Shown here in pieces: positions 15,733 to 31,958 of a stretch of 64,000 nucleotides of DNA. Source of the stretch: Sphaerotilus mobilis (lineage in GTDB: Bacteria > Pseudomonadota > Gammaproteobacteria > Burkholderiales > Burkholderiaceae_C); NCBI RefSeq assembly GCF_004216565.1, contig NZ_SGWV01000009.1, forward strand, positions 558,001 through 622,000. The letters are read 5' to 3'. Below the pieces are notes generated by a model. It worked only from the letters and a program-made list of their open reading frames with translations. It had not been told where the DNA came from and made no database searches. The translations under genes and the position numbers were made by a program. Position 1 is the stretch's first letter; the number at the start of each line of letters is the position of its first letter.

Positions 15733-15880
15733 GCTGGGTGGCGGCCCTGACCGCCACGACCAACCGCTGCTGAACGCCCCTGCCCTCGCATCCTGACGAG
15801 GCGGGGCGATGCCCCCCATTCCTGGCGCACGCCGGGCCCGAAGCGCGGCCCGGGCGCACGCCTTGCCCTGGCCAACGACC

Positions 15881-18052: not shown

Positions 18053-18066
18053 GCCTGACGGCATCC

Positions 18067-18092
18067 GGCGGACGGGCCGCAGCCGGTCCGCC
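18067..18092 (+). terminator. GC-rich hairpin after the TonB receptor
   Basis: GGCGGAC (18067-18073) pairs with GTCCGCC (18086-18092), 14 nt after the receptor stop. There is no T-run, so it may be a processing or Rho-dependent site rather than a true intrinsic terminator. Confidence 0.3.
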
Positions 18093-18181
18093 CGCCGGGT
18101 CACGTCCCAGACAAGCAACCCAAGGCACGCCGCGTCACACCGTGACGCACCGCGCCACACCACCCCGGACCTCCCGACACC

Positions 18182-19006
18182 ATGGACAACGAACGTCGAC
18201 ATTTCCTGCAGGCAGCGGCAGCGGCGCTGGCCGCCTCGCCCTGGCTGGCACAGGCCGCGCAACCCGCTGCGGCCGAGCCCGCGCCATCGCACGACATGAG
18301 CCACGTGCCCGCCCATTGGACCGGCAGCGAGCAGATCGGCATGCTGCTCTACCCCGGCTGCACGGCGCTGGACTTCGTCGGCCCGCAATACCTGTTTGCC
18401 AGCCTGATGGGGGCGACCGTGCACCACGTCGCGGCCACGCTGGAGCCGGTCACCAGCGACACCGGTCTGGGCCTGGTGCCCACCGTCACGCTGGCCGATT
18501 GCCCGCGTGACCTGGACGTGCTGTTCGTGCCGGGCGGCGGCCAGGGCACGCTGGCGGCGATGCGCGACGAGGCCCTGCTGGCCTTCGTGGCCGACCGCGG
18601 ATCTCGCGCCCGCTGGGTCACCAGCGTCTGCACCGGCTCGCTGGTGCTGGGCGCGGCCGGGCTGCTCAAGGGCTACCGCGCCACCAGCCACTGGGTCGCG
18701 CTGGGTTTGCTGGCCGAGGCCGGCGCCACCCCGGTCGACGAGCGGGTGGTGCGCGACCGCAACCGGCTGACGGGCGCGGGCGTCAGCGCCGGACTGGACC
18801 TGGGCCTGAGCCTGGTCGAGATCCTGCGCGATCGCCTCTATGCCCAGAGCGTGCAGCTGCTGGCCGAATACGCCCCACAGCCGCCGTTCAACGCCGGCAC
18901 GCCAAAAACGGCACCGGCCGAAGCCACGGCGCTGATGCGCGACATGTTCACCGGCTTCGTGCGCGACGGCCGGCAGATCCTGAAGGACCGCCGCTCACGC
19001 GGCTGA
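18182..19006 (+). CDS. Tat-exported DJ-1/PfpI-family protein (isonitrile hydratase-like)
   Basis: A 274-aa DJ-1/PfpI protein. The core resembles isonitrile hydratase/ThiJ proteins: IGMLLYPGCTALDFVGPQ, VLFVPGGGQGTL, and nucleophile elbow SVCTGSLVLGAAGLL with Cys150, followed by RATSHW with His170. Unusually for this mostly cytosolic family it begins with a twin-arginine-type signal (ERRHFLQAAAAALAASPWLAQA), so it is probably folded in the cytoplasm and exported to the periplasm. It is 129 nt downstream of the TonB receptor on the same strand. Its stop lies 13 nt from the convergent allophanate hydrolase stop. The reaction is unknown: isocyanide hydration or a protective or chaperone role are both possible. 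Confidence 0.85.
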   Translation: MDNERRHFLQAAAAALAASPWLAQAAQPAAAEPAPSHDMSHVPAHWTGSEQIGMLLYPGCTALDFVGPQYLFASLMGATVHHVAATLEPVTSDTGLGLVPTVTLADCPRDLDVLFVPGGGQGTLAAMRDEALLAFVADRGSRARWVTSVCTGSLVLGAAGLLKGYRATSHWVALGLLAEAGATPVDERVVRDRNRLTGAGVSAGLDLGLSLVEILRDRLYAQSVQLLAEYAPQPPFNAGTPKTAPAEATALMRDMFTGFVRDGRQILKDRRSRG

Positions 19007-19019
19007 GTCCGTCATCGGG

Positions 19020-20870
19020 TCAGACCGTCATCCCGCTCGCCCGCCAAGCCCGCCACCCCCCGAACTCGCTCACGTCCCGCGCCCCGGCCAGGCCGCTGGC
19101 CTCGCAGATGAAGCCGGGCACCTCGCTGCCGTCGGCCAGCAGGGTGCGGCCGATGCCGAGCGGGGCGGGGATGGCGGCGACGAAGCTGCCGAAGGCGGTG
19201 GCGGGGAGTTCCCAGACCTCGACCTCGATGGCGACGCCGCCCGGTGTCGCGCCGTCGGCGACGCGTTGCAGGCCGGGGCGCTTGCCGTCGGGCAGGGCGT
19301 AGAGGCGGTAGACCGGGGCGGTGTGGGTGGCCGCCACCAGGCGGGCGCCGCGTGAGGTGAGTTGGGGGTTGAGCGGCTGGCCCGACAGGTGGGCGCCGCA
19401 GACCGCCACGCGGACCTGGCCGGACGGTGTCTGGTTGGCCGGGGCCGCGAGCGCTGCAGCCGGCAAGGCGTGGCCGGTGGCGCCCAGCGTGGCGGCGGGG
19501 CCCGTCAACGTGGCCTGCCAGCGGGCGGCCAGGCGCAGCAGGGGCACGTCCTGATGGGCCGGGGCGAACAGGGTGATGCCGAAAGGGCGACCCGGCGCGC
19601 TGCCGTCGCCCGCCAGCCAGCCCGAGGGCAGGGCCACGGCGGCGCAGTCCAGCAGGTTCATGAAGTTGGTGTACGTGCCCAGCTCGCTGTTGCGCACGAT
19701 GGGCTCGGCCAGCATCGCGGCGATCGTCGGGTGGCCGGGCGCGGTGGGTGTCAGCACCGCGTCGACCTGAGACCAAACCACGTCGCAGCGGCGCTTGAGC
19801 GCCTGCAGGCGGATCTGCGCCGCGTAGGCGTCGGCCGCCAGCAGGGCCTTGCCGCCGAGCGTGATCTCGCGGGTGACGGGGAAGACGGCCTCGGGCTGGC
19901 GCTCGATGAAGTCGCGGATGGCACCGTAGCGTTCGGCCACCCAGGGGCCTTCGTAGAGCAGGCGGGCGGTCTCGTAGAAGGGCTCGAAGTCCAGCTCGAC
20001 CAGCTCGGCGCCGAGCGCGCGGGCCTGTTCGATCGCACGGTCGAAGGAGGCCGCGCAGCCCGCCTCGGTCCAGACCCGCTGATCGCCGCGCGGCACGCCC
20101 AGGCGCGGCCGCGGATCGGCACCCACGTCGTGGCCGTGCGGCAAGGCGGCGCGGCTGCAGGGGTCTTCGGCGTCGAAGCCTTGCGCGACGGCCAGCACGG
20201 CGGCGGCGTCGGCGGCGGTCAGGGCAAAGATCGAGACCACATCGAGCGTGCGGCAGGCCGGCACCACGCCCCGGGTCGACAGCAGGCCGCGGGTCGGCTT
20301 GAGGCCCACCAGCTGGTTGAAGGCGGCCGGCACGCGGCCCGAGCCGGCCGTGTCGGTGCCCAGGCTGAAGCTGACCTGGCCGAGCGCGACCGAGACCGCC
20401 GAGCCGGCGCTGGAACCGCCCGAGACATAGGCCGGATCGAAGGCATTGCGGCAGGCGCCGTGCGGCGAGCGGGTGCCGTTCAGGCCGGTGGCGAACTGGT
20501 CCAGGTTGGTCTTGCCGACGGGGATGGCGCCCGCGTCGACCAGGCGCTGCACGACCGGCGCGTGGGCATCCGGCGCATAGGCATAGGCGGGGCAGCCGGC
20601 GGTGGTCGGCAGGCCGGCCACGTCGATGTTGTCCTTGACCGCGAAGGGCACGCCCCACAGCGGCAGCGTGGCCGGATCGCGCGCCATCAGCGCCCGGGCC
20701 TGGGCGCGCAGCCGCTCGGGGTCGACGCGGCTGATCCAGGCGCGGTGGGCGTCCTCGTCCGAGGTGGCGGCGATGACCTGCTCGATCACGCCCAGCGGAT
20801 CGCGCCGGCCGGCGGCGTAGTCGGCGCGCAGGGTGGCCAGGTCCAGCGAAGGCCAAGAGGGCGTGTTCAT
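19020..20870 (-). CDS. atzF: Allophanate hydrolase
   Basis: Allophanate hydrolase splits allophanate to two NH3 and two CO2, the last step of guanidine (or urea) breakdown through a biotin carboxylase. The 616-aa protein has an amidase-signature domain with the Ser-cisSer-Lys triad visible: K79 (FAVKDNIDVAG), S153 (SGGSSAGS) and S177 (GTDTAGSGR). A C-terminal domain of about 150 residues is typical of AtzF. The ATG at 20870 overlaps the carboxylase stop by 4 nt (ATGA), so the two are translationally coupled. It is the last gene of the long minus-strand guanidine operon and convergent with the DJ-1-like gene. Confidence 0.95.
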   Translation of the reverse strand: MNTPSWPSLDLATLRADYAAGRRDPLGVIEQVIAATSDEDAHRAWISRVDPERLRAQARALMARDPATLPLWGVPFAVKDNIDVAGLPTTAGCPAYAYAPDAHAPVVQRLVDAGAIPVGKTNLDQFATGLNGTRSPHGACRNAFDPAYVSGGSSAGSAVSVALGQVSFSLGTDTAGSGRVPAAFNQLVGLKPTRGLLSTRGVVPACRTLDVVSIFALTAADAAAVLAVAQGFDAEDPCSRAALPHGHDVGADPRPRLGVPRGDQRVWTEAGCAASFDRAIEQARALGAELVELDFEPFYETARLLYEGPWVAERYGAIRDFIERQPEAVFPVTREITLGGKALLAADAYAAQIRLQALKRRCDVVWSQVDAVLTPTAPGHPTIAAMLAEPIVRNSELGTYTNFMNLLDCAAVALPSGWLAGDGSAPGRPFGITLFAPAHQDVPLLRLAARWQATLTGPAATLGATGHALPAAALAAPANQTPSGQVRVAVCGAHLSGQPLNPQLTSRGARLVAATHTAPVYRLYALPDGKRPGLQRVADGATPGGVAIEVEVWELPATAFGSFVAAIPAPLGIGRTLLADGSEVPGFICEASGLAGARDVSEFGGWRAWRASGMTV

Positions 20871-23800
20871 CGGGTCGATTCCTCGTCGTTCGTGTCGCCG
20901 CTGTTGCTGCTGTTGCCGGTGTCGCCAACGTCGCCGTTGTCGATCACGGCCACGGTCTGGCCCGCCGCGACCGCACCCCCTTCGCGGCACAACAGGCGGC
21001 GCAGCCGGCCGTCGCTGGGCGCGGCGATGGTGAATTCCATCTTCATGCTCTCGACCACCAGCAGCGGCTGGCCCTCGCGCACCGTCGCACCGGGCTCGAC
21101 CAGCAGCTTCCAGACGCTGCCGGGCACGGGGCTGGCGACCGCGCGGGCGCCGGGCGGCAGGGCCTCGTCGGGCTCGGTCGATGCGGCCCCATCGGCCTCG
21201 GCGACGTGTTCGGCCTGACCGGCCGCCGCCCAGCGTTCACGCTCGGCCGAGAAGGCGGCGCGCTGGGTGGTGCGGAAGGCGGCGATCGCGTCGGCCTGAT
21301 CGTCCAGAAAGGCCTGGTAGTCGCGCAGCGAGAAGCGCCCCGGTTCGGTCCGCAGCTTGTGGCGGCCGGCGGGGAAGTCGCGCCGGATGCGCGCCAGCTC
21401 CTCGCCGTCGACCGGGTAGAAGCGGATCTGGTCGAAGAAGCGCAGCAGCCAGGGCTGGCCGGGCTCAAAGTCGGTGGCGCCGTCGCGGGCGTCGCGCCAG
21501 CGGTTCCACATCTGCAGCGTGCGGCCGACGAACTGGTAGCCGCCCGGGCCTTCCATGCCGTAGACACACAGGTAGGCGCCGCCGATGCCCACGGCGTTCT
21601 CGGGCGTCCAGGTGCGCGCCGGGTTGTACTTGGTCGTCACCAGCCGATGGCGCGGGTCCAGCGGCGTGGCCACGGGCGCGCCCAGGTAGACATCGCCCAG
21701 GCCCAGCACCAGGTAGCGCGCGTCGAAGACGGTGCGGTAGACGTCGTCGATGTGGTCCAGCCCGTTGATGCGGCGGATGAACTCGATGTTGCTCGGGCAC
21801 CAGGGCGCGTCTGGGCGGACCGACTGCATGTATTTCTCGATCGCCAGCCGCGTGCTCGGGTCGTCCCAGGACAGCGGCAGCCAGACCGTGCGCGAGGGCA
21901 CCGACAGGTCGTCGGTCGGGCCCAGGGCGTCGTCCCGTTCGGCCAGCAGGGCGAGCAGGGCCTCGCGGTCCAGCACGCGCGGGTCGTGGTGGACCTGCAG
22001 GCTGCGGATGCCGGGCGTCAGGTCGATCACGCCGCGCAGGTCGCCGGCCTCGATGCGCGCTTCGAGCGAGCGCATCAGCGCATGGACCCGCAGGCGCAGC
22101 GCGATGTCGAGCACCGGCTCGCCGTATTCGAGCAGCAGGTAGCGGTCGCCCGACTGACGGATGACACGGGCGGGCCGGCCCGGTTCGCCCTCACGCCGCG
22201 ACAGGATGGCCGCTTGACCGGTCGGCGCAAGCGTCGCGGCCGGCAGTTCAGGCAAGGGCCCCTCCAGCGTCGCCAGCGCGGCATCGAGCTGCGCGTGCAG
22301 GCTCAGCGCCTGAGCCAGTGACAGCGGCACGAAGCGCAGCGTGTCGCCGGGGCGCAGCTGGCCGAGCTTCCAGCGCTCGCCGGCCACCACCACGGCGGGG
22401 CAGACGAAGCCGCCCAGGCTGGGGCCGTCGGGGCCCAGGATGACCGGCATGTCACCGGTGTAGTCGACCGCGCCGATGGCGTAGGCGTTGTCGTGCAGGT
22501 TGGACGGGTGCAGGCCGGCCTCGCCGCCGTCCGGCCGGGCCCAGGTCGGCTTCGGGCCGATCAGGCGCACCCCCGTGCGGCTGGAGTTGTGGTGGACCTG
22601 CCAGTCGGTGGCGTAGAAGGTGGCGATGTCCTCGGGCGTGAAGAAGTCGGGCGCGCCATGCGGCCCGTCCAGCACGCCGATGCGCCAGTGCCGGCCCGGT
22701 GCGGGCAAGGCCAGCGCCGGTGGCTCGAAGCGCGGCGCGTCGGGGCAGGCCGCGTCGTCGCCCACCGGCAGCAGGTCGCCGACCCGCAGGTGGCGCCCGC
22801 CGTGTCCGCCGAACTGGCCGAGCGTGAAGGTCGCGCGGCTGCCCAGGTAGGCCGGCACGTCGACGCCGCCGCGCACGGCCAGGCAGGCGCGCGCCCCGGC
22901 CTCCAGCGCGCCCAGGCGCAGCACGGCGCCGGCAGGCAACTCATGCGCCCGGCCAGTGGCCAGGGCGATGCGCCGGCCGTCGACCTCCAGCGTCATCGGC
23001 ATCGCCGCACCGGCCAGCGCCACGACCAGCGGCTGCAGGCAACGCAGCGTCGGACCGGCCAGCGTGCATTCGAGCGTGGCCGCATCGGCCGGGTTGCCGA
23101 CCAGCCGGTTGGCCAGGCGGTGGCCCAGCTCGTCCATCGGGCCGGACGGCGGCACGCCGACATGCCAGTAGCCCTGCCGGCCGGGCCAGTCCTGCACGCT
23201 GGTCATGACGCCGCCGTCGAGCACCTCCAGCGCACGCGGCATCGGCCGGAAGTCGGCCAGCGTCGCGGTGACGACGCGGCCCTGCTCGAACACCGGCGCG
23301 GCGACCAGCGCACGCAGGTAGCCGAGGTTGGTGGCGATGCCGCCCAGCCGGGTCTCGGCCAGCGCGGCGCGCAGCCGGGCCAGGGCATCGGTGCGGTCCC
23401 GGCCGGTGACGATCAGCTTGGCCAGCATCGGGTCGTAGTGCGGCGGCACATCGGTGCCACGGGCGACCCAGCCGTCGACGCGCACGCCGCTGGCGGGGTC
23501 CGGCCAGACCACCTCGGTCAGCAGCCCGGCGCTGGGCTGGAACTGGCGCGCCGGGTCCTCTGCATACAGCCGGACCTGGATCGCCGCGCCGCGCGGTTCC
23601 GGCGCCACCAGCTCGAAGGCGTCGCCGCGCGCGAGCTTGACCATCCACGCGACCAGGTCGACGCCGGTGACCTGCTCGGTGACGCCGTGTTCGACCTGCA
23701 GCCGGGTGTTGACCTCCAGGAAGTGGAAGGCGCCGCTGTCGGCATCGAGCACGAACTCGACCGTGCCGGCCGAGCGGTAGCTCACGGCCTGAGCCAGCCG

Positions 23801-24580
23801 GACCGCGCAGGCGCACAGGTCGGCGCGGGTGGCGGCGTCCAGGTGCGGCGCGGGCGTTTCCTCGACCACCTTCTGGTGACGGCGCTGGGCTGAGCAGTCG
23901 CGTTCGCCGAGCGCAATGACCTGGCCGCGCCCGTCGCCGAAGACCTGCACCTCGATGTGGCGGGCGCGGGTGATGAACTTCTCGACGTAGAGGCCGGCGT
24001 CCTTGAAGTTGGCCTGCGCCAGCCGCTGCACCGAGGCCCAGGCCTCGCCCAGCGCCGCTGCGTCGTCGACCCGGCGCATGCCGATGCCGCCGCCGCCGGC
24101 CGTGCTCTTGAGCATCACCGGGTAGCCGATGCGTTCGGCCGCGACACGCGCGGCATCGACGTCGGACAGCAGGCCGGTGCCGGGCAGCAGCGGCACGCCC
24201 AGTTCGGATGCCAGCGAGCGGGCCGTGTGCTTGAGCCCGAAGGCGCGCATCTGCGCCGGGCTCGGGCCGATGAAGGCGATGCCGGCGTCCTCGCAGGCCT
24301 GGGCGAAGGCCGGGTTCTCGCTCAGGAAGCCGTAGCCCGGGTGGATCGCACCGGCGCCGGTCTCGCGGGCGGCGGCCAGGATGCGCGCGCCGTCAAGGTA
24401 GCTCTGCGCCGCCGGGGCCGGGCCGATGCAGACGGCGGCATCGGCCAGGCGGACATGGGCCGCGTCCGCATCGGCCTCCGAATGCACCGCCACCGCACGC
24501 AGGCCCAGGTCCCGCAGCGTGCGGATGATGCGCACCGCGATCGCGCCGCGATTGGCGATGAGGACGGTGTCGAAACTCAT
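20867..24580 (-). CDS. Biotin-dependent urea/guanidine carboxylase
   Basis: A 1237-aa single-chain biotin carboxylase of the urea carboxylase family. In order: an ATP-grasp biotin carboxylase domain (~1-450, with KFITRARHIEVQVFGDG and FLEVNTRLQVEHGVTEQVTG), a KipA/KipI-like carboxyltransferase region (~460-1100), and a C-terminal biotinyl domain with VVESMKMEF, biotinyl Lys about 1180. Members next to DUF1989 pairs and guanidine riboswitches have been shown to be guanidine carboxylases making carboxyguanidine. The riboswitch 6.5 kb upstream makes guanidine the likely substrate here. The ATG at 24580 has AGGGG upstream. The last ~25 residues are an Asp/Gly/Asn/Ser tail encoded by imperfect short repeats. 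Confidence 0.93.
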   Translation of the reverse strand: MSFDTVLIANRGAIAVRIIRTLRDLGLRAVAVHSEADADAAHVRLADAAVCIGPAPAAQSYLDGARILAAARETGAGAIHPGYGFLSENPAFAQACEDAGIAFIGPSPAQMRAFGLKHTARSLASELGVPLLPGTGLLSDVDAARVAAERIGYPVMLKSTAGGGGIGMRRVDDAAALGEAWASVQRLAQANFKDAGLYVEKFITRARHIEVQVFGDGRGQVIALGERDCSAQRRHQKVVEETPAPHLDAATRADLCACAVRLAQAVSYRSAGTVEFVLDADSGAFHFLEVNTRLQVEHGVTEQVTGVDLVAWMVKLARGDAFELVAPEPRGAAIQVRLYAEDPARQFQPSAGLLTEVVWPDPASGVRVDGWVARGTDVPPHYDPMLAKLIVTGRDRTDALARLRAALAETRLGGIATNLGYLRALVAAPVFEQGRVVTATLADFRPMPRALEVLDGGVMTSVQDWPGRQGYWHVGVPPSGPMDELGHRLANRLVGNPADAATLECTLAGPTLRCLQPLVVALAGAAMPMTLEVDGRRIALATGRAHELPAGAVLRLGALEAGARACLAVRGGVDVPAYLGSRATFTLGQFGGHGGRHLRVGDLLPVGDDAACPDAPRFEPPALALPAPGRHWRIGVLDGPHGAPDFFTPEDIATFYATDWQVHHNSSRTGVRLIGPKPTWARPDGGEAGLHPSNLHDNAYAIGAVDYTGDMPVILGPDGPSLGGFVCPAVVVAGERWKLGQLRPGDTLRFVPLSLAQALSLHAQLDAALATLEGPLPELPAATLAPTGQAAILSRREGEPGRPARVIRQSGDRYLLLEYGEPVLDIALRLRVHALMRSLEARIEAGDLRGVIDLTPGIRSLQVHHDPRVLDREALLALLAERDDALGPTDDLSVPSRTVWLPLSWDDPSTRLAIEKYMQSVRPDAPWCPSNIEFIRRINGLDHIDDVYRTVFDARYLVLGLGDVYLGAPVATPLDPRHRLVTTKYNPARTWTPENAVGIGGAYLCVYGMEGPGGYQFVGRTLQMWNRWRDARDGATDFEPGQPWLLRFFDQIRFYPVDGEELARIRRDFPAGRHKLRTEPGRFSLRDYQAFLDDQADAIAAFRTTQRAAFSAERERWAAAGQAEHVAEADGAASTEPDEALPPGARAVASPVPGSVWKLLVEPGATVREGQPLLVVESMKMEFTIAAPSDGRLRRLLCREGGAVAAGQTVAVIDNGDVGDTGNSSNSGDTNDEESTR

Positions 24581-24665
24581 GACTGCCCCTCGCACGACGG
24601 GTACATCGGTCGATCCCCCGAGGGGATGCGGGCCGGCTTGGGAGCGGCCCGGCGCTCGGCCCGGG

Positions 24666-25334
24666 TCATGCTGTCTCCCCTTGCCAGAACAGGAACTCGA
24701 CCGGCGTCGGGTTGTAGGCGTTGCACGGGTTGTTGAGCTGCGGGCAGTTGGAGACCAGCATGTGCAGGTCCATGTGCGCGGTCAGCTCGACGTACTTGCC
24801 CGGCGCGCTGACGCCGTCGGCGAAGGTCAGGCGGCCGTCTGCCGTCACCGGCACGTTCATGAAGAAGTTGATGTTGGGCACCAGGTCGCGCTTGCCCAGG
24901 CCGACGTCGGCCTGCTGCAGCGCCAGCAGGTAGTTGTCGCGGCAGTTGTGCATGAACTTCTTCTGCAGCGCATAGCGCACGGTGTTGCTCTCGGCCGCGC
25001 AGGCGCCGCCGAGCGTGTCGTGGCGGCCGCAGGTGTCGGCGCTGATGGTCAGCATCGGCCGGCCCAGGTTGCTCATCAGCACCGAGCCGGTGGTCAGGTA
25101 GATGCCGCCCTGGGCCAGCAGCGTGTCGCTGGCGCTGTAGTGCTCCGCGAGGTCGTGGCGGGCGTAGAAGATGACGTCCACGGCCTGGTTGCCTTCGAGG
25201 TCGACGATGCGCAGCGTCTGGCCGGCATCGACGGTCGTGAACCACGGCTCGCCAGCGGCCTGACGGTGGCGGCGCACGGCGGCCTCGGGGGCCAGCGCGC
25301 TTTCCTGGAAACGCAGGGAGGTCGGTGCAGTCAT
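24666..25334 (-). CDS. DUF1989 protein, urea amidolyase-associated 2 / carboxyguanidine deiminase subunit
   Basis: A 222-aa DUF1989 protein long annotated as urea amidolyase-associated protein 2. Paired DUF1989 proteins have been shown to form carboxyguanidine deiminase (CgdAB), which turns carboxyguanidine into allophanate and ammonia. Visible family features are WFTTVDAGQTLRIVDLEGNQAVDV, HYSASDTL, the Cys/His-rich ISADTCGRHDTLGGACAAES segment and VPNINFFMNVPV. I use the ATG at 25334, preceded by AGGAG; the frame opens upstream without a better start. It lies between its paralogue (25361) and the carboxylase. Which of the two proteins is catalytic cannot be read here. Confidence 0.92.
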   Translation of the reverse strand: MTAPTSLRFQESALAPEAAVRRHRQAAGEPWFTTVDAGQTLRIVDLEGNQAVDVIFYARHDLAEHYSASDTLLAQGGIYLTTGSVLMSNLGRPMLTISADTCGRHDTLGGACAAESNTVRYALQKKFMHNCRDNYLLALQQADVGLGKRDLVPNINFFMNVPVTADGRLTFADGVSAPGKYVELTAHMDLHMLVSNCPQLNNPCNAYNPTPVEFLFWQGETA

Positions 25335-25360
25335 GCGTGGGCTCCTGGGGTCGACCGGGT

Positions 25361-26167
25361 TCAGCAAAGCGCGAACACGTCGCTGTTGTGCAGCGCACGG
25401 GCGCCTTCCGGGCGGTGCCGGCGGCAGACGTCGTCGGCCTCGGCCGGGCCGCGTCGCCAGGCGGCGATGCCGACCTTGCCGGGCGCATAGCCGGGCCGCA
25501 GGTCCAGCGGGTGCGGGGCGGTGCTGATGGCGACGATGACGTCCAGGTCCATGCGCAGCTCGACCGCGCCGCCGCGCACGACACGTTCGGCGTCGAAGGC
25601 AAAACGGCCGTGTTCATCGACCGTCACGCGGCTGAACAGGTTGACCGGCGCGATCTGGTCGCGCAGCGTCAGGCCGTGTTTGCCGGTCTCGATCAGCAGG
25701 CCGTCGCGGCCGCTGCGGTGCATCGCGTTGCGGTGCGTTTCATAGCGCTGCAGGCCGTGGCGGGCCTCCATCGTCGGCGTGTCCAGCAGGCCGCCGAAGG
25801 GGTCGTGCCAGCCCAGCGTGTCGTGCGTGAAGGACGCCAGCGCGCGGCCCATGTCGCTCATCAGCACATGGCCAGTGCTGTAGTGCGCGGTGTGCTGGGC
25901 CTTGAGGCTGTCGGGCATGTTGTAGCGCTCCAGCCGGTCGTGCGCGGCGTAGAGCACGACGGCGCAGTTGGCGCGCTCGTCCAGCGCGACGAAGCGCAGC
26001 GCCATGCCGCGGCTCAGGCGCCAGCTCCAGTGGCCGCCGCCGGGCACGATCTCGCTCCAGACCACGCGCTCGGCGGGCAGCTCGGGCGCAAAGCGTTGCC
26101 ACAGCGGCGGGGCGTCGATCGGCTGGGTCGGCGGCGGGTTGTCGAGGGTGTGCAGCGGTGCGGTCAT
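25361..26167 (-). CDS. DUF1989 protein, urea amidolyase-associated 1 / carboxyguanidine deiminase subunit
   Basis: A 268-aa DUF1989 paralogue of the next gene, equivalent to urea amidolyase-associated protein 1. Shared features are the WSWRLSRGMALRFVALDERAN strand pair, YNMPDSLKAQHTAHYSTGHVLMSDMGR, THDTLGWHDPFGG (conserved His/Asp in place of the Cys-rich loop) and IAPVNLFSRVTVDEHG. It is expected to pair with its neighbour as a heteromeric carboxyguanidine deiminase in the cytoplasm. It lies 33 nt downstream of the ABC ATPase gene and 27 nt upstream of the second paralogue, all on the minus strand. Confidence 0.92.
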   Translation of the reverse strand: MTAPLHTLDNPPPTQPIDAPPLWQRFAPELPAERVVWSEIVPGGGHWSWRLSRGMALRFVALDERANCAVVLYAAHDRLERYNMPDSLKAQHTAHYSTGHVLMSDMGRALASFTHDTLGWHDPFGGLLDTPTMEARHGLQRYETHRNAMHRSGRDGLLIETGKHGLTLRDQIAPVNLFSRVTVDEHGRFAFDAERVVRGGAVELRMDLDVIVAISTAPHPLDLRPGYAPGKVGIAAWRRGPAEADDVCRRHRPEGARALHNSDVFALC

Positions 26168-26200
26168 GGCGAGGGCAGGCGGGCGAGGGGCAGCGGGGGT

Positions 26201-27097
26201 TCAGCGGGTCTGGTCCAGCGTCGCGGCCTGCGAGAGCTGTTCGAGCAGCTCGTGGTCGGTCTGCAGGCCGGAGGTGGCGCGGATGCGCGCCAGCACCTCG
26301 CGCTTGAGCGCGACGAACTCGGGCGCGAGCTTCATGTCCTGGCTGCGGCGCGGCCCCAGCGGCACCGCGTGGATGCTGTCGATGCGGCCGGGGCGCGGCG
26401 CCATCAGCACGACGCGCTGGCCCAGGTAGAGGGCCTCTTCGACGTCGTGCGTGACGAAGACGATGGTGGTGCGTTCCAGCCGGTGCACATGCAGGATCAG
26501 GTCGTGCATGACCTCGCGGGTCTGTGCATCGAGCGCGCCGAAGGGCTCGTCCATCAGCAGCACCGGCGGGCGGCTCATCAGGGCGCGCGCGATCGCCACG
26601 CGCTGCTGCATGCCGCCGGACAACTGGCCCGGATAGGCGTGTGCGACATGCCCCAGCCCCATCAGGCGCAGCAGCGCATCGGCGCGGCCGGAGGCGGCCT
26701 CCACGTCGGCGCTGCTGCGGTCTTGTGTGTGCACGGCCAGGCGGCGGCTGAACTTGATGTTGTCGATCACCGTCAGCCACGGGTAGAGGCTGTAGTGCTG
26801 GAACACCATCGCCCGGTCCGGGCCGGGGCCGTCGACCGCCCGGCCATCGACCACCAGCTCGCCAGCGTCGTGGCTCTCCAGCCCGCCGATGGTGCGCAGC
26901 AGCGTCGACTTGCCGCAGCCCGAGGCGCCCACCAGCGTGACGAACTCGTTGGGCGCGATCGCTAGGTCGACCGCCTGCAGCGCGGTCATGCGGCTCGGGC
27001 CACGACCGTAGTGCTTCCACAGGCCGCTGCAGCGGATGTGGGCCTGGGCGTGTGCATCGGCCGCGCCTGCTGCCTGGGCGTGTTCGGGGTGGCTCAT
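26201..27097 (-). CDS. ABC transporter ATPase (nitrate/sulfonate/taurine type) of the guanidine operon
   Basis: The 298-aa ATPase powers uptake with the permease at 27127. Walker A is GASGCGKST, followed by Q-loop FQHYSLYPW, signature LSGGMQQRVAIARAL, Walker B VLLMDEPFGALD and H-loop VTHDVEEAL. It belongs to the SsuB/TauB class. The ATG at 27097 is chosen because it starts the recognisable domain about 30 residues later; the frame runs on upstream through the permease in another reading phase and is not coding. The gene starts 30 nt after the permease stop. The transported substrate is inferred to be guanidine or a guanidine-releasing compound from the riboswitch-led operon. Confidence 0.95.
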   Translation of the reverse strand: MSHPEHAQAAGAADAHAQAHIRCSGLWKHYGRGPSRMTALQAVDLAIAPNEFVTLVGASGCGKSTLLRTIGGLESHDAGELVVDGRAVDGPGPDRAMVFQHYSLYPWLTVIDNIKFSRRLAVHTQDRSSADVEAASGRADALLRLMGLGHVAHAYPGQLSGGMQQRVAIARALMSRPPVLLMDEPFGALDAQTREVMHDLILHVHRLERTTIVFVTHDVEEALYLGQRVVLMAPRPGRIDSIHAVPLGPRRSQDMKLAPEFVALKREVLARIRATSGLQTDHELLEQLSQAATLDQTR

Positions 27098-27126
27098 CGG
27101 GTGATCCAGTCGTTGGGCGTGACGGT

Positions 27127-27972
27127 TCAGTGCCGCACCACCAGCCAGGGGAAGGCCTTGCGGTGCAGCCAGCGCATGCCCTGGTCCATCGCCAGGCCGA
27201 TGGCGCCGATCAGCAAGATGCCGGCAAAGATCTGGTCGGTCTGCAGGTAGCGCTGGGCCTTCAGGATCGAATAGCCCAGGCCCGAGTTGGCGGCCACCAG
27301 CTCGGCCACCACCAGGTAGGTCCAGGCCCAGCCCATGGTGATGCGCAGCGTGTCCAGCAGGGCCGGCTTGGCCGAGGGCAGGATGACCTGTTCGAGCAGC
27401 TCGCGGCGGGTGGCGCCCATCGTCTGCGCGGCCTCGACCTGCGACATCGGCACGCGCTTCACGTCCTCGGCCACCATCAGCACCATCTGGAAGAAGGTGC
27501 CGATGAAGATCACCGCCACCTTCGAGCTTTCCTCGATGCCGAACCACAGCATCACCAGTGGGATGAAGGCCACCGCCGGCATGTAGCGGATGAAGTCGGT
27601 CAGCGGCTCCAGCAGCGCCTGCACGCCCCGGTAGCTGCCGATCAGCAGGCCCAGCGGCAGGGCCAGCACGGCCGACAGGGCCCAGCCGGTGACGACCCGG
27701 TAGACGCTGATGCCGACGTCGCCGGCCAGGTCGCCGTCGACGGCCCAGGCCAGCGCACGCTGCACCACGCTCCACGGCCCGGGCAGGAAGACCGGGTCAT
27801 TGCCCTCGCGCAGCGTCAGCCCGATCCAGCCCAGCAGCGGCAGCAGCAGGCCGAGCAGGGCCAGCAGCCAGTAGGCGGTCGGCGGGATCGCCTGCCGGAC
27901 CTGCCACAGCCGGGTCGGGCGGTGGCGGTCGGGCGGCGGGGTCAGGGCGGGTTCCATGGTGGGGCGGTCCAT
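27127..27972 (-). CDS. ABC transporter permease (SsuC/TauC type) of the guanidine operon
   Basis: A 281-aa inner-membrane permease with about six to seven membrane helices. The cytoplasmic EAA loop is visible as EAAQTMGATRRELLEQVILPSAKPAL, matching the coupling helix of the SsuC/TauC family. It starts 4 nt after the stop of the unknown gene at 27977, so the two are probably translationally linked. A second in-frame ATG lies 15 nt downstream and could be the real start. It works with the ATPase (26201) and the periplasmic binding protein (29851). Confidence 0.94.
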   Translation of the reverse strand: MDRPTMEPALTPPPDRHRPTRLWQVRQAIPPTAYWLLALLGLLLPLLGWIGLTLREGNDPVFLPGPWSVVQRALAWAVDGDLAGDVGISVYRVVTGWALSAVLALPLGLLIGSYRGVQALLEPLTDFIRYMPAVAFIPLVMLWFGIEESSKVAVIFIGTFFQMVLMVAEDVKRVPMSQVEAAQTMGATRRELLEQVILPSAKPALLDTLRITMGWAWTYLVVAELVAANSGLGYSILKAQRYLQTDQIFAGILLIGAIGLAMDQGMRWLHRKAFPWLVVRH

Positions 27973-27976
27973 GCCG

Positions 27977-28759
27977 TCAAGCGCCAGCGGGGTCGATCAG
28001 CACGGGCTGGTCGGCCGCTTCGAGCGCGCGCCAAGGGCCCAGGTCGCGCGGCGGCAGGCCTTCGAGCCAGGGCAAGGTCGAGCGCCGCACGCGCCAGTCG
28101 CCGTCCGGTCCGTCGACCTGTTCGGCCAGGCTGATCTCGCAGTCGGCGGCGGCGATCAGCGCGTTGCGGGCGATGGGCTGATCGGTGGCGACCGCGTGGC
28201 GCACCGTGCGCGTGCTGGCCGCGTCCAGCGCCCGGGCGCGCAAGGTGATCTGCCAGCGCCCGACGCGGATGCGCAGGCGCGTCAGGCGTGTGCCGGGTGG
28301 CTCATCGCATGAGCCTTCGGCAGACCAGCCAGGGCCGGTGTCCTCGGCGACCCAGCGCTCGTCGTAGTCGGCGGCCAGGCCCCACTCGTCCATGCCATCG
28401 GCATCGAAGCGCAGCGCGCCGACATCGGCGATGCGGCTCTCGGCATGGTCGATCAGGCGTTGCCAGCGGCAGCTCGCGACCGTGTCGCCGTCGACGCCCT
28501 CGACATGGGTCAGCCCCGCGAAGCCTTCCTGCGTCAGCAGCCAGCGCAGCTGCGGCGTGCTGCAGTCGGCCAGCGAGGCCACACCCGAGTAGTCGGGCCT
28601 TGCGGCCGGCACGCGCAGGTCGGCATGCCAGTGCGGCGTCTGCAGCCACCAGACGGCGGTGCTGCGGTCGTCCAGCGTCGCGCCGGTGCGGGCGGGCACC
28701 CGCAGGCGGGTGCGGCGCCAGAGGCCCTGGAGGCGGTCGGGAACGGGTTGCGCGCCCAT
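27977..28759 (-). CDS. Unrecognised protein inside the guanidine operon
   Basis: A 260-aa soluble protein without signal peptide or membrane helix, family not recognised with certainty. It begins MGAQPVPDRLQGLWRRTRL and is rich in Trp and Arg. Motif-like segments include VWWLQTPHWHADLRVPAARPD, QEGFAGLTHV and WGLAADYDERW. The pattern of alternating hydrophobic residues suggests a beta-rich, possibly lipocalin- or heme-binding-like fold, but this is only an impression. Its ATG is 1 nt after the desaturase-like stop (TGACATG) and its own stop is 4 nt before the permease start, so it is tightly coupled to both. It probably acts with the desaturase-like enzyme or on its product; no specific function can be assigned. 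Confidence 0.85.
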   Translation of the reverse strand: MGAQPVPDRLQGLWRRTRLRVPARTGATLDDRSTAVWWLQTPHWHADLRVPAARPDYSGVASLADCSTPQLRWLLTQEGFAGLTHVEGVDGDTVASCRWQRLIDHAESRIADVGALRFDADGMDEWGLAADYDERWVAEDTGPGWSAEGSCDEPPGTRLTRLRIRVGRWQITLRARALDAASTRTVRHAVATDQPIARNALIAAADCEISLAEQVDGPDGDWRVRRSTLPWLEGLPPRDLGPWRALEAADQPVLIDPAGA

Positions 28760-28760
28760 G

Positions 28761-29837
28761 TCAGACCGCCGTGAGGAAGGAGACACCGTAGGCACCGCGG
28801 AAACCATCCGCGCGGTCCCGGCCCGTGCCGACCGCGCCGTAGTCGTCGTCCAGCACGCGGCTCAGGCGGTGGCGGTGGTAGCTGCGCAGGTAGCGCGCCA
28901 TCGGCAGGGTCTGGGCATGGCCTTCGGCGTCGCCAGCGGCCTCGGGGTAGAGGGCGGCGTGCAGCGCGGGCAGGCGGTGCCAGGGCTCGACCGGGCGCTC
29001 ATGGTGGGCGTTGTGGAAGGCGAAGTTCAGCAGCAGCAGGTTGAGCCACGGCCAGCGCGTCGACACCAGGTTGCTGTAGGTGTTGTGCTGCTCGTAGGCG
29101 TGGTCACGCGGCGCGGCGCCGTCGGCCACCGGTGGCATCGGCGCGTGCAGGTCATTGGTCGCGAACGCCTCGTAGGTGTGCTGGTAGGCATCGGCATAAC
29201 GCAGCGCCGTAACCATCAGCAGCCAGGCGACGAGGTAGCCCAACAGCGCCCAGGGCGAGGCCCAGGCCAGCAGCGCGAACGCCGTCAGGCGCACGGCCAG
29301 CACGCCGATCACCCGTGCGCGCCGGTCACGCCGGTCATCGAGCAGGAAGGGCTGGACGATGACGTAGCCATGCATCAGCACCTCCACCGCCGGGATGTGG
29401 GCCCACTCGCAGGCCAGCACCAGGCGGCGCAGCCAGGCCGGGCCCTCGCGCAGGAAGCGGCGCACGTCGAAGGTGATGACGTCGGCCCGGTCGACGTGGT
29501 GGCGCATGTGCTTGTGGCGCAGATCGTCGAAGCGGGCATAGGCGCTGCCGGCCAGCCAGCCCATCGCCTCGCCCCAGCGCCGGTTGACGGCCGGCTTGCG
29601 GAAGATGCTGTGGTGGGCGAACTCGTGCAGGAAGTAGGCCGACAGGATCAGCGCGTGAGCCAGTCCCAGCGTGCCGAGGACCCGCAGCCAGCTGGGCCCG
29701 CTCACCAGCAGCGCGAGGCTGCCGGCCCAGCAGCTCAGCGTCCAGCCGAGCGCCAGCGTGTTGAGCAGGGCGCCATCGGCATGGCGCCAGAGCGAAGGCC
29801 GGCGCGCCGGCACCACGATCGCGTCGGACTTGCTCAT
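28761..29837 (-). CDS. Membrane fatty-acid desaturase/hydroxylase-like di-iron protein in the guanidine operon
   Basis: A 358-aa membrane protein of the fatty-acid desaturase/alkane hydroxylase superfamily. The three histidine clusters that bind the di-iron centre are present: HEFAHH (71-76), HKHMRHH (108-114) and HNAHH (275-279), with extra His at 246 and 251. About four to five hydrophobic helices separate them. Members use O2 to desaturate, hydroxylate or cleave C-H or C-N positions. Its place directly after the binding-protein gene (13 nt) in a riboswitch-controlled guanidine operon suggests it may oxidise an alkyl- or acyl-guanidine or another nitrogen compound so that free guanidine is released. 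That role is inference. A lipid-modifying role cannot be excluded. Confidence 0.9.
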   Translation of the reverse strand: MSKSDAIVVPARRPSLWRHADGALLNTLALGWTLSCWAGSLALLVSGPSWLRVLGTLGLAHALILSAYFLHEFAHHSIFRKPAVNRRWGEAMGWLAGSAYARFDDLRHKHMRHHVDRADVITFDVRRFLREGPAWLRRLVLACEWAHIPAVEVLMHGYVIVQPFLLDDRRDRRARVIGVLAVRLTAFALLAWASPWALLGYLVAWLLMVTALRYADAYQHTYEAFATNDLHAPMPPVADGAAPRDHAYEQHNTYSNLVSTRWPWLNLLLLNFAFHNAHHERPVEPWHRLPALHAALYPEAAGDAEGHAQTLPMARYLRSYHRHRLSRVLDDDYGAVGTGRDRADGFRGAYGVSFLTAV

Positions 29838-29850
29838 GGCGCGCGCCGGC

Positions 29851-30870
29851 TCAGGGGGCCAGGGCCTTGACGAACTGGGCGTCGAAGGTCGCCTCGGTCG
29901 GCGGGATCGTGGTGATCTGGCCCTTGTCCTTGAGGATCTTGCCGATCACCGCGCCGCTGGCGTAGTAGGACGTCGTGTCCGTCCCCGGCATGAAGGCGCG
30001 GCCCATCTCGGCCGGTGGGATGTTGTAGACGCCGGCCAGCTGTTCCTTGACCTCGGCGGGCTTCAGGCCCATGGCCTTGGCGATCAGCTTGTGGGCCTCG
30101 GCGGGCTTGGCCTTCATGTAGGCCAGGCCGTCGAGGTAGCCGGCGATGACGGCCTTGACGTCGGCCGGGCGGGCCTTGATCGTCTTCTCCGGGAACACCA
30201 GCACGTCGGCGATCAGGCCGGGCGCGTCCTTGGACGAGAACACCACCTTGAACTTCTTGCCGCCACCTTGCGACAGGATCTGCGACACGCTGGGCTCGTA
30301 GGTCACGCCCACGGGCACCTTGCCCGAGGCCATCGCGGCCGGGATCGCCTCGGGGGTCATGTTGACCGGCTTGATGTCCTTCTCGCTCAGGCCGGCCTTG
30401 GACATGGCATAGGCCAGCAGGAAGTCCGACGGCGACAGCGGATTGAACGCGACGGCCTTGCCCTTGAGGTCGGCCACGCTCTTGATGCTGGCGTCGCCCA
30501 GCATGGCGTCGCCGCCGTTGGAGTAGTCGATCGGCATGACGACCTTGGCCGAGCGGCCCTGGGCGACCTCGCCGATCACCTGGTCGTAGGTGGCGACCAC
30601 GCCGTCGACCGCGCCGCTGGCCATGCCGGGCAGCAGCAGGGCCGGATCGCTGAAGGTCTGCAGCTTGACCTTGACGTTGTGCTTCTTGAACAGGTCCAGC
30701 GCCTCGGCCACGTAGAAGGGCCCGTAGCCGATCCACACGGTGGTGCCGATCGAGACCGTGGCCGGCGCGGCCTGGGCGGCCGGGGCGAGCGTCAGGCCAA
30801 AGGAGGTGGCCAGCGCGAACGCCGCCAGGGTCGAGACGGTCGAGCGGCGGGTGCGGAGGATGTGGCGCAT
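29851..30870 (-). CDS. Periplasmic substrate-binding protein, first gene of the guanidine operon
   Basis: A 339-aa NMT1/SsuA-like periplasmic binding protein. A cleavable signal peptide (RRSTVSTLAAFALATSFGLT ... AAQA) precedes TVSIGTTVWIGYGPFYVAEAL, the usual first strand and ligand loop of this class. It should capture the ligand and deliver it to the permease at 27127. I take the ATG at 30870, with GGAG (minus strand of 30876-30879) as ribosome binding site; a TTG further upstream is less likely because it would include that site. It is the first gene after the guanidine-I riboswitch, whose downstream stem can cover this ribosome binding site. Confidence 0.94.
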   Translation of the reverse strand: MRHILRTRRSTVSTLAAFALATSFGLTLAPAAQAAPATVSIGTTVWIGYGPFYVAEALDLFKKHNVKVKLQTFSDPALLLPGMASGAVDGVVATYDQVIGEVAQGRSAKVVMPIDYSNGGDAMLGDASIKSVADLKGKAVAFNPLSPSDFLLAYAMSKAGLSEKDIKPVNMTPEAIPAAMASGKVPVGVTYEPSVSQILSQGGGKKFKVVFSSKDAPGLIADVLVFPEKTIKARPADVKAVIAGYLDGLAYMKAKPAEAHKLIAKAMGLKPAEVKEQLAGVYNIPPAEMGRAFMPGTDTTSYYASGAVIGKILKDKGQITTIPPTEATFDAQFVKALAP

Positions 30871-30874
30871 GTGA

Positions 30875-30968
30875 GGCTCCAAGCGTGGTGGATGACAAAA
30901 GCCGATGGATCGGGGAAGCCACCTCGCGTCGCGAGGGTCCTCCCGGGCTTTTGTCCCGCCGTGGAGCC
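30875..30968 (-). promoter_or_regulatory. Predicted expression platform that sequesters the ribosome binding site
   Basis: Two segments of the aptamer 3' side are complementary, in nested order, to segments downstream: GACAAAAGCC (30955-30946) with GGCTTTTGTC (30903-30894), a perfect 10-bp match, and GGCTCC (30968-30963) with GGAGCC (30880-30875), which contains the ribosome binding site of the first gene. Guanidine binding would hold GACAAAAGCC inside the aptamer and free the site. No T-run follows the inner stem, so translational rather than transcriptional control is favoured. Confidence 0.65.
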
Positions 30969-31073
30969 TGAGGTCCGTCGAAGCGCGTCAACGCTCCGGG
31001 CCTTGAGGCCGGTGGCTCTCGGACCAGACACCGGTCTGCATCGACCGGCCGGAACCCTAGCCACCCTGGTGGC
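30918..31073 (-). ncRNA. Guanidine-I riboswitch (ykkC class)
   Basis: Reading 5' to 3' on the minus strand, the conserved blocks of the ykkC/guanidine-I aptamer appear in order: CTAGGGTTCCGG (31060-31049), CTGGTCCGAGAG (31026-31015) and CACGGCGGGACAAAAGCCCG (30962-30943), which continues as GGAG. Between them, CCGGTC...GACCGG and a longer variable arm can form the peripheral stems. Flanking GCCACC (31073-31068) and GGTGGC (30923-30918) could close a basal stem. The class binds free guanidinium. It lies 48 nt upstream of the binding-protein start codon. The match to the known consensus is strong enough to name the class from sequence alone. Confidence 0.95.
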
Positions 31074-31104
31074 GACGTGAGGTCGCTTCCCGTTGCGGGG
31101 AGAT

Positions 31105-31120
31105 TGCAAGGTGCGTGCCC
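31105..31120 (-). promoter_or_regulatory. Sigma-54 (-24/-12) promoter of the guanidine operon
   Basis: Minus strand reads GGGCACGCACCTTGCA (31120-31105), with GG and GC exactly 10 nt apart and a close match to TGGCAC-N5-TTGCA. Transcription would start near 31094, some 20 nt upstream of the riboswitch. Sigma-54 control would put the operon under nitrogen (NtrC-type) regulation. I could not identify a convincing NtrC site by eye. Confidence 0.7.
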
Positions 31121-31223
31121 GCTGCTGCGGCCCCTGCCAAGGGCCGGCAGGCCTTGTTGCTGGTGCGGGCTGCGCCGCCTTGGTGCGTGGCGTGCGTCGG
31201 ATGCTGGCGCAGCGGGCGGTCGA

Positions 31224-31958
31224 TCAGCCCGCCGCGTGCCGCAGCAACTCGGCCACCAACGCGGCCGGCTCGGTCACCATGGGGCAATGGCCGGTGGCGA
31301 TCTCACGCACCTCGAAGCCGGGCAGGCCACGCACCCGCGTGCGCATCGCCGCGATGGTCGGGTAGGCCGGCGCGGTGCAGTCGATGAACAGGCGCGGCAG
31401 GCGAGCCCAGCGCGCGCCGTCAAAGGCCAGCGGGTCGCGGTAGGGTCCGAAGGGATGCGGCACCTGGCGGCGCAGGAGCCAGTCGCGGTCGGCGCCGGTG
31501 ATGCCGAAGTCGGCCGGGTCCGGCGGCGGCAGCGCGTGGTCGTTGGCGAGCGCCGCCGCCGTGCGCGAGGCGATCACCTCGGGGCTGTGCTGCTCGCCCC
31601 AGCCCTCGCCGGGCAGCGGCACCATCGCGTCGACATAGACGAGGCTGCGCACCCGGTCGGTCGCGCCGGCCAGCAGGCGGTCCGCCGCCCCGGTCACGAC
31701 CATGCCGCCGTAGCTGTGGCCGACCAGGATGACGCCGTGCAGCTCCTCGGCCTCGACCAGCGCCACGACGTCGTCAACATGGTCCTTCAGCCGGATGCCG
31801 GGCTGGCGCAGGTGCGCACGTTCGCCGTCGCCGGTCAGCGTCACCGCATGGACCTCGTGGCCGGCCGCACGCAGCGGTGCGAGCACGCGCCGCCAGATCC
31901 AGGCGCCGCCCCAGGCGCCGTGCACGAGGACGATGGGTGCGCGTGTCGGGTGCGTCAT
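31224..31958 (-). CDS. Alpha/beta hydrolase (esterase-like)
   Basis: A 244-aa alpha/beta-hydrolase of the small MES/salicylate-esterase-like class. HGAWGGAWIW forms the oxyanion region near residue 14, the nucleophile elbow is GHSYGG, and the late His is in EIATGHCPMVTEP; an Asp (FIDCTAPAY region) would complete the triad. It is cytosolic, without a signal peptide. The start at 31958 is the first ATG of the recognisable domain; the frame opens upstream through the divergent dehydrogenase gene and is not coding there. It is on the same strand as, but upstream of, the guanidine operon promoter. It is divergent from the dehydrogenase at 32043, sharing an 84-nt promoter region. Substrate unknown. 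Confidence 0.9.
   Translation of the reverse strand: MTHPTRAPIVLVHGAWGGAWIWRRVLAPLRAAGHEVHAVTLTGDGERAHLRQPGIRLKDHVDDVVALVEAEELHGVILVGHSYGGMVVTGAADRLLAGATDRVRSLVYVDAMVPLPGEGWGEQHSPEVIASRTAAALANDHALPPPDPADFGITGADRDWLLRRQVPHPFGPYRDPLAFDGARWARLPRLFIDCTAPAYPTIAAMRTRVRGLPGFEVREIATGHCPMVTEPAALVAELLRHAAG

Follow-up and report, generated by a model that had tools for sequence, protein, structure and literature searches.

The guanidine-I operon of Vreelandella boliviensis, described in 2025, holds two extra genes, MgdH and MgdL (PMC12508155). Methylguanidine is hydroxylated by MgdH, which is a 2-OG dioxygenase. MgdL, a hypothetical protein with a beta-barrel model, cleaves N-(hydroxymethyl)guanidine, a compound of unusual stability; it is reported to be narrow for this substrate and to require D49 and R51 (PMC12508155). 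Both guanidine switches are reported at this locus, the class-II switch binding methylguanidine and guanidine and the class-I switch guanidine only, and abiotic formation from creatinine is given as the only known origin of methylguanidine (PMC12508155).

The operon presented here lies in a 64,000-nucleotide stretch of the Sphaerotilus mobilis genome (the window). It shares with V. boliviensis a guanidine-I switch, an ABC importer, CgdA/B, guanidine carboxylase, the allophanate hydrolase AtzF and an MgdL with D and R, but where V. boliviensis has the 2-OG dioxygenase MgdH the window has a membrane protein of the FA_desaturase family, and the pair of genes stands between the substrate-binding protein (SBP) and the permease rather than between carboxylase and AtzF. 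The SBP types also differ, and the guanidine-II switch reported in V. boliviensis has no match in the window operon (positions 19000 to 31400, E up to 1). The standard guanidine carboxylase operon has the same order of permease, ATPase, CgdB, CgdA, carboxylase and AtzF, whereas in place of its usual SBP the window has another SBP followed by the desaturase-family and MgdL-like genes. The guanidine-I switch and the guanidine pathway are an ordinary part of the locus, and it is the gene pair that makes the operon a variant, with a predicted unrelated replacement of MgdH and, in relatives, a link to creatinine. We found no prior report of a desaturase-family/MgdL guanidine operon or of a creatinine link in the open-licence papers, taken without the gene tables of the key earlier papers.

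The riboswitch and the nine-gene operon

A reading of the sequence alone had placed a ykkC aptamer, with its three conserved blocks in order, at 30918-31073, and a covariance search bore this out: the Rfam match falls inside that interval, spans model positions 1-107 of 107 (E 6.2e-13) and lies well above the gathering threshold, with nothing unusual for its class (Table 1). It is the single copy found in the 4.65 Mb genome, with 67 nt between its end and the ATG at 30870 where the first gene starts. An alternative stem that takes in the 3' part of the aptamer is possible in the leader; its pairing is better than 195 of 200 shuffles in the window and 49 of 200 in the sister species (locus L033). 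Since the pairing is weak in the sister species, we claim neither transcriptional nor translational control, and a conserved terminator or ribosome-site mechanism was not demonstrable from the window leader and this comparison.

Behind the aptamer follow nine minus-strand genes that overlap or are separated by at most about 85 nt, in the order SBP, FA_desaturase family, MgdL-like, permease, ATPase, UAAP1 (DUF1989), UAAP2 (DUF1989), carboxylase and allophanate hydrolase. The sequence-only reading counted nine genes correctly and the seven that it named are present, but it missed the two between binding protein and permease. On the plus strand (15809-19006), two open reading frames judged from their translations alone, one TonB-dependent receptor-like (15809-18052) and one of DJ-1/PfpI type (18182-19006), converge on the end of the operon.

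Table 1. Features of the guanidine-I operon, in window coordinates
Feature	Positions	Strand	Basis
Guanidine-I (ykkC) riboswitch aptamer	30938..31071	-	RF00442, 81.4 bits, gathering 63 (cmscan)
GGAG, likely ribosome-binding site of first gene	30877..30880	-	read from sequence
Periplasmic SBP, NMT1/SsuA type	29851..30870	-	PF09084
FA_desaturase-family membrane protein, predicted N-alkylguanidine (methylguanidine) hydroxylase	28761..29837	-	PF00487 101 bits, cut-off 29.7
MgdL homologue, predicted N-(hydroxymethyl)guanidine lyase	27977..28759	-	homology; D and R kept
ABC permease	27127..27972	-	PF00528
ABC ATPase	26201..27097	-	PF00005; start codon chosen among options
UAAP1 / DUF1989, one carboxyguanidine deiminase subunit (CgdB here)	25361..26167	-	TIGR03425 310 bits, cut-off 206
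UAAP2 / DUF1989, other carboxyguanidine deiminase subunit (CgdA here)	24666..25367	-	TIGR03424 333 bits, cut-off 285
Guanidine carboxylase (annotated family: urea carboxylase)	20867..24595	-	TIGR02712 1798 bits; Asp at guanidine/urea position
Allophanate hydrolase (AtzF)	19020..20870	-	TIGR02713 777 bits, cut-off 511

NCBIfam and Pfam matches put carboxylase, CgdA, CgdB and AtzF together in this one operon. The motif GAVDYTGD of the window carboxylase aligns with GAINFTGD of the solved Kluyveromyces lactis urea amidolyase, whose Asn, counted along the alignment, falls at residue 1330, the number of the substrate-binding Asn in this yeast enzyme. At one active-site position guanidine carboxylases have Asp and urea carboxylases Asn (PMC12186494). 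We found Asp in all 12 of the sites recovered from 13 loci, window and V. boliviensis included (L107 being the sole locus without a recovered site), in a comparison that ran without a bacterial urea-specific control. This guanidine-type Asp at the carboxyltransferase position supports the earlier warning that a plain "urea carboxylase" label would mislead. The companion claim, that guanidine rather than urea is the substrate, agrees with the carboxylase pathway and its Asp but needs widening, because the swapped SBP type and the desaturase-family and MgdL-like genes make it probable that free guanidine is not the sole substrate of the operon and that an N-alkylguanidine is a further one.

The exchange of the SBP is visible within the genus. 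Four other species (L122-L125) carry aptamer, SBP, permease, ATPase, CgdB, CgdA and carboxylase, with AtzF visible in three of the four, and their proteins are 71-75% (permease), 74-78% (ATPase) and 81-88% (CgdA) identical to those of the window, as against merely 33-35% for the SBP. The window SBP is instead 57-69% identical to the SBPs of desaturase clusters at ten loci (L034-L040, L042, L044 and L102), and 49% identical to that of L103. It scores 113 bits against TIGR03427 (urea ABC transporter binding protein), below the cut-off of 334, which the standard SBPs of the genus also miss (168 and 160 bits). The window and one further genome (G002) have this other SBP type followed by the desaturase-family and MgdL-like genes, and no class-I aptamer was found in seven further genomes of the genus. 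On the simplest reading, SBP, desaturase-family gene and mgdL arrived as a block that displaced the usual SBP, from which it would follow that the imported substrate has probably changed.

The desaturase-family protein and the MgdL homologue

The MgdL-like protein of the window is 39% identical to V. boliviensis MgdL over 132 aa (89.7 bits); we located the latter gene in its genome through the printed primer, and its product has D at residue 49 and R at residue 51. Both catalytic residues are present in the window protein as D63/R65 (276-aa numbering), and an upstream GTG/ATG choice would shift the start of the gene to 28807. A search of NCBIfam (E up to 0.001) places the protein in no family and Pfam offers no credible match, a profile search of solved structures with its alignment returned nothing at E up to 1, and plasmids gave no match.

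We read 21 loci of the MgdL family, 16 of which keep both D and R (window, L052, L033-L036, L039, L041, L043, L102, L104 and L113-L117), a number enriched by construction since the search of the class used a profile of D/R sequences alone; the other five do not keep both (L031 and L047-L050). Among these five, L047 and L048 were searched for guanidine riboswitches and none was found, and L047-L050 show no operon homologue beyond a weak ATPase match in L047. For five of the 16 D/R loci the stretch read shows no riboswitch: L041 and L043 are short contigs of genomes that have the cluster, L115 has CgdA and CgdB, and L114 and L117 give no sign of guanidine genes save an MgdH relative in L114. The latter belongs to a second pair of MgdH relative (44-45%) and D/R-type MgdL at about 8798-10230 of L114, in a genome that also carries a standard MgdH/MgdL operon.

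The desaturase-family protein has the boxes HExxH, HxxHH and HxxHH plus one further His, and shares its Pfam match and three histidine boxes with the FA_desaturase superfamily at large. Histidines 71, 75, 110, 113, 114, 220, 275, 278 and 279 are conserved in all 22 usable rows of its clade, window included (L108 gave no usable row). What sets the clade apart from the superfamily is its guanidine-linked gene contexts, without a match among solved structures (profile search, E up to 1). A single-sequence structure model of the protein was unusable at a mean pLDDT of 47, with 34 for the other model, and viral contigs hold no relative of either this protein or the MgdL-like one. The only plasmid match is a distant relative (30%) on Gloeothece verrucosa plasmid NC_014533.1 (L118, 8950-10529), which adjoins a gene annotated as ectoine synthase, with a halogenase and a 4-hydroxyphenylacetate 3-monooxygenase nearby; ectoine is a cyclic amidine.

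We followed the clade through two genome samples, 199 relatives and 369 genomes of the class, with at least two genomes common to both; counts of genomes and genes alike leave aside four weak matches (<25 bits) in the relatives. The clade occurs in 22 genomes, including one (G246) whose contig-end fragment (L112) stands outside the count of 23 genes, which are those with a readable surrounding stretch. Upstream of 15 of the 23, within 2.5 kb and on the same strand, lies a guanidine-I (RF00442) or guanidine-II (RF01068) aptamer: class I in the window, L033, L034, L035 (first copy), L036, L037, L038, L040, L042, L102, L103 and L104, and class II, directly upstream, in L105, L108 and L110. Given only 32 class-I aptamers in all among the 199 relatives (under stricter filters), this adjacency is far above chance, and the three genes directly behind class II fit methylguanidine as a substrate. 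Three more genes have a looser guanidine link, namely the second copy of L035, that of L044, which has a class-I aptamer some 11 kb upstream (same strand) and carboxylase genes between, and that of L107, on the same strand as a carboxylase operon. The remaining five (L045, L046, L106, L109 and L111) have no visible guanidine link, which counts against the reading preferred below. A lactonase-like metallo-beta-lactamase gene adjoins the desaturase-family gene in L104, L106, L107 and L108; in the last three it occurs without MgdL and may be a candidate for an alternative second step.

In the window, the desaturase-family gene stands directly before mgdL, at the place that MgdH occupies in V. boliviensis (L052), L113 and L116, where the stretch read has no desaturase-family gene. 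Fourteen genomes of the two samples have a D/R-type MgdL: eleven also have the clade, two have MgdH beside MgdL (G562 and G369), and in the last (G282) both the clade and a strong MgdH are missing, which speaks against the reading we prefer below. The clade and MgdL genes are not visibly one cluster in three of the eleven; in G166 and G411 they lie at different places, and for G070/G085 a shared cluster is undecidable from the contigs. MgdH at 45% identity or more was found in four genomes of the class sample, which that search covered, and the clade in none of these four. Eleven of the 22 clade genomes yielded no D/R-type MgdL, evidence against a strict pairing of the clade with MgdL.

None of the nine genes of the operon matches MgdH. 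Its best relative in the genome, a 2-OG-Fe(II) oxygenase 38% identical to it, is on another contig, and the presence of even this distant relative is a point against the preferred reading. The operon around it (G000:C5:248270-251140; L127, 7237-10449 and beyond) also has an NMT1-type binding protein, an ABC ATPase and a creatininase-family protein under the cut-off (108 bits), with flavodoxin-fold and Rieske (VanA_C) proteins nearby, and possibly serves the catabolism of another N-methyl compound.

Creatininase clusters in relatives

A longer cluster around a clade gene, as in L102 (5903-13641), runs from aptamer, SBP and desaturase-family gene through two short-chain dehydrogenases and an EamA transporter to creatininase, a biuret-hydrolase-like isochorismatase-family amidase, a lactonase-like metallo-beta-lactamase and MgdL. 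This order is kept in L034-L038, L040/L041, L042/L043 and L103, with members missing or cut at contig ends; EamA was not found in L034, L036, L038 and L103, nor MgdL in L037, L038 and L103, while L035 has extra genes and two desaturase-family genes. The creatininases reach 361 (L037), 352 (L102) and 356 (L103) bits against the TIGR04448 equivalog cut-off of 235. Eight of the 199 relatives have a creatininase above this cut-off, and in seven it is within the clade cluster (counting G142, where the cluster creatininase is a partial match), which connects creatinine with guanidine riboswitches; in the eighth (G064), which lacks a clade gene, the creatininase is preceded by a nucleobase-type permease gene. 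Among the relatives the clade occurs in 11 genomes, four of which, that of the window included, have no creatininase above cut-off.

Chemical oxidation of creatinine gives creatol and methylguanidine (PMC3775425). In the relatives, creatinine would undergo ring hydroxylation, dehydrogenation and ring opening by creatininase, and then amide cleavage to methylguanidine, which would be demethylated with the help of MgdL. Beyond creatol, the intermediates of the chemical route are an oxidised ring and its ring-opened form, and then methylguanidine. The proposed route would use most of the cluster genes and calls for two hydroxylation steps; a single desaturase-family gene is seen at most loci (two at L035). 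Taken as a whole, the clusters suggest an unreported route from creatinine to guanidine. The joint proposal, that a membrane diiron protein of the desaturase superfamily stands in for MgdH as the hydroxylase of a small, polar guanidinium compound and that the relatives' cluster oxidises creatinine stepwise to guanidine, is a tentative one, to which we give somewhat less than even odds.

Proposed function of the operon and its implications

From the aptamer, gene order, homologies, key residues and linkage, all of them observed, we infer every enzyme reaction, the substrates and the direction of the switch. The guanidine-I riboswitch would turn the operon on, and the ABC importer with its swapped binding protein would take up an N-alkylguanidine. 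The desaturase-family protein would hydroxylate the carbon next to the guanidine nitrogen, giving a stable hemiaminal that the MgdL homologue would cleave to guanidine and an aldehyde (formaldehyde in the case of methylguanidine); together the two proteins probably take a methyl or comparable group off guanidine compounds. The freed guanidine would double as inducer, and the carboxylase, the two DUF1989 proteins and AtzF would carry it to CO2 and ammonia.

We put the probability at about 0.6 that the riboswitch operon imports an N-alkylguanidine, most likely methylguanidine, together with probably guanidine, and converts them to ammonia with the desaturase-family protein in the place of MgdH. 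This reading draws on the homology of MgdL with its D and R, the desaturase-family gene at the MgdH position, the co-occurrence in 11 of 14 genomes, the histidine boxes, the riboswitch linkage of 15 of 23 clade genes, the cassette swap, the precedent of V. boliviensis and the carboxylase pathway with its Asp. Methylguanidine is preferred for the window because its short form (hydroxylase, MgdL and carboxylase pathway) corresponds at every step to the demethylation of methylguanidine. Weighing against the preferred reading are the characterised members of the FA_desaturase superfamily, which to our knowledge act on lipophilic substrates, and the lack of a redox partner among the nine genes in NCBIfam and Pfam searches.

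One observation against methylguanidine comes from a FastTree tree (midpoint root; topology alone), in which the desaturase-family protein and SBP of the window fall within those of the creatininase clusters. Together with the seven of eight genomes whose creatininase above cut-off is in such a cluster, this would accord with an SBP and desaturase-family protein that handle creatinine or creatine, the window operon being a shortened creatinine cluster with its other steps lost or elsewhere. We consider this unlikely, seeing that the best creatininase score in the window's genome is 108 bits against 235, that no dehydrogenase, amidase or lactonase-like gene is among the nine, and that MgdL of V. 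boliviensis is described as narrow for N-(hydroxymethyl)guanidine (PMC12508155).

The four other species of the genus that have the operon without the pair might be taken to mean that this is a plain guanidine operon in which both genes of the pair are passengers or unrelated in role, yet the pair has its own SBP type, keeps its catalytic residues and recurs behind guanidine riboswitches in distant genomes, and we hold this to be quite improbable. Least probable of all, and very much so, is a true lipid desaturase, induced by guanidine and shielding membranes from a chaotropic compound; the family name, the membrane character and the description of guanidine as chaotropic (PMC12186494) are in keeping with it, but the gene accompanies uptake and catabolic genes (MgdL, creatininase, amidase, dehydrogenases), and none of its neighbours was recognised as a lipid gene.

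Where guanidine and methylguanidine come from in nature is an open question. If the N-alkylguanidine reading is true, a new kind of enzyme frees guanidine from alkylguanidines, and "fatty acid desaturase" would be a misleading name in such operons. If the creatinine route of the relatives is also true, creatinine, a vertebrate waste product, would be linked to guanidine riboswitches, and their cluster would form methylguanidine and guanidine enzymatically, the type of source said to be missing.
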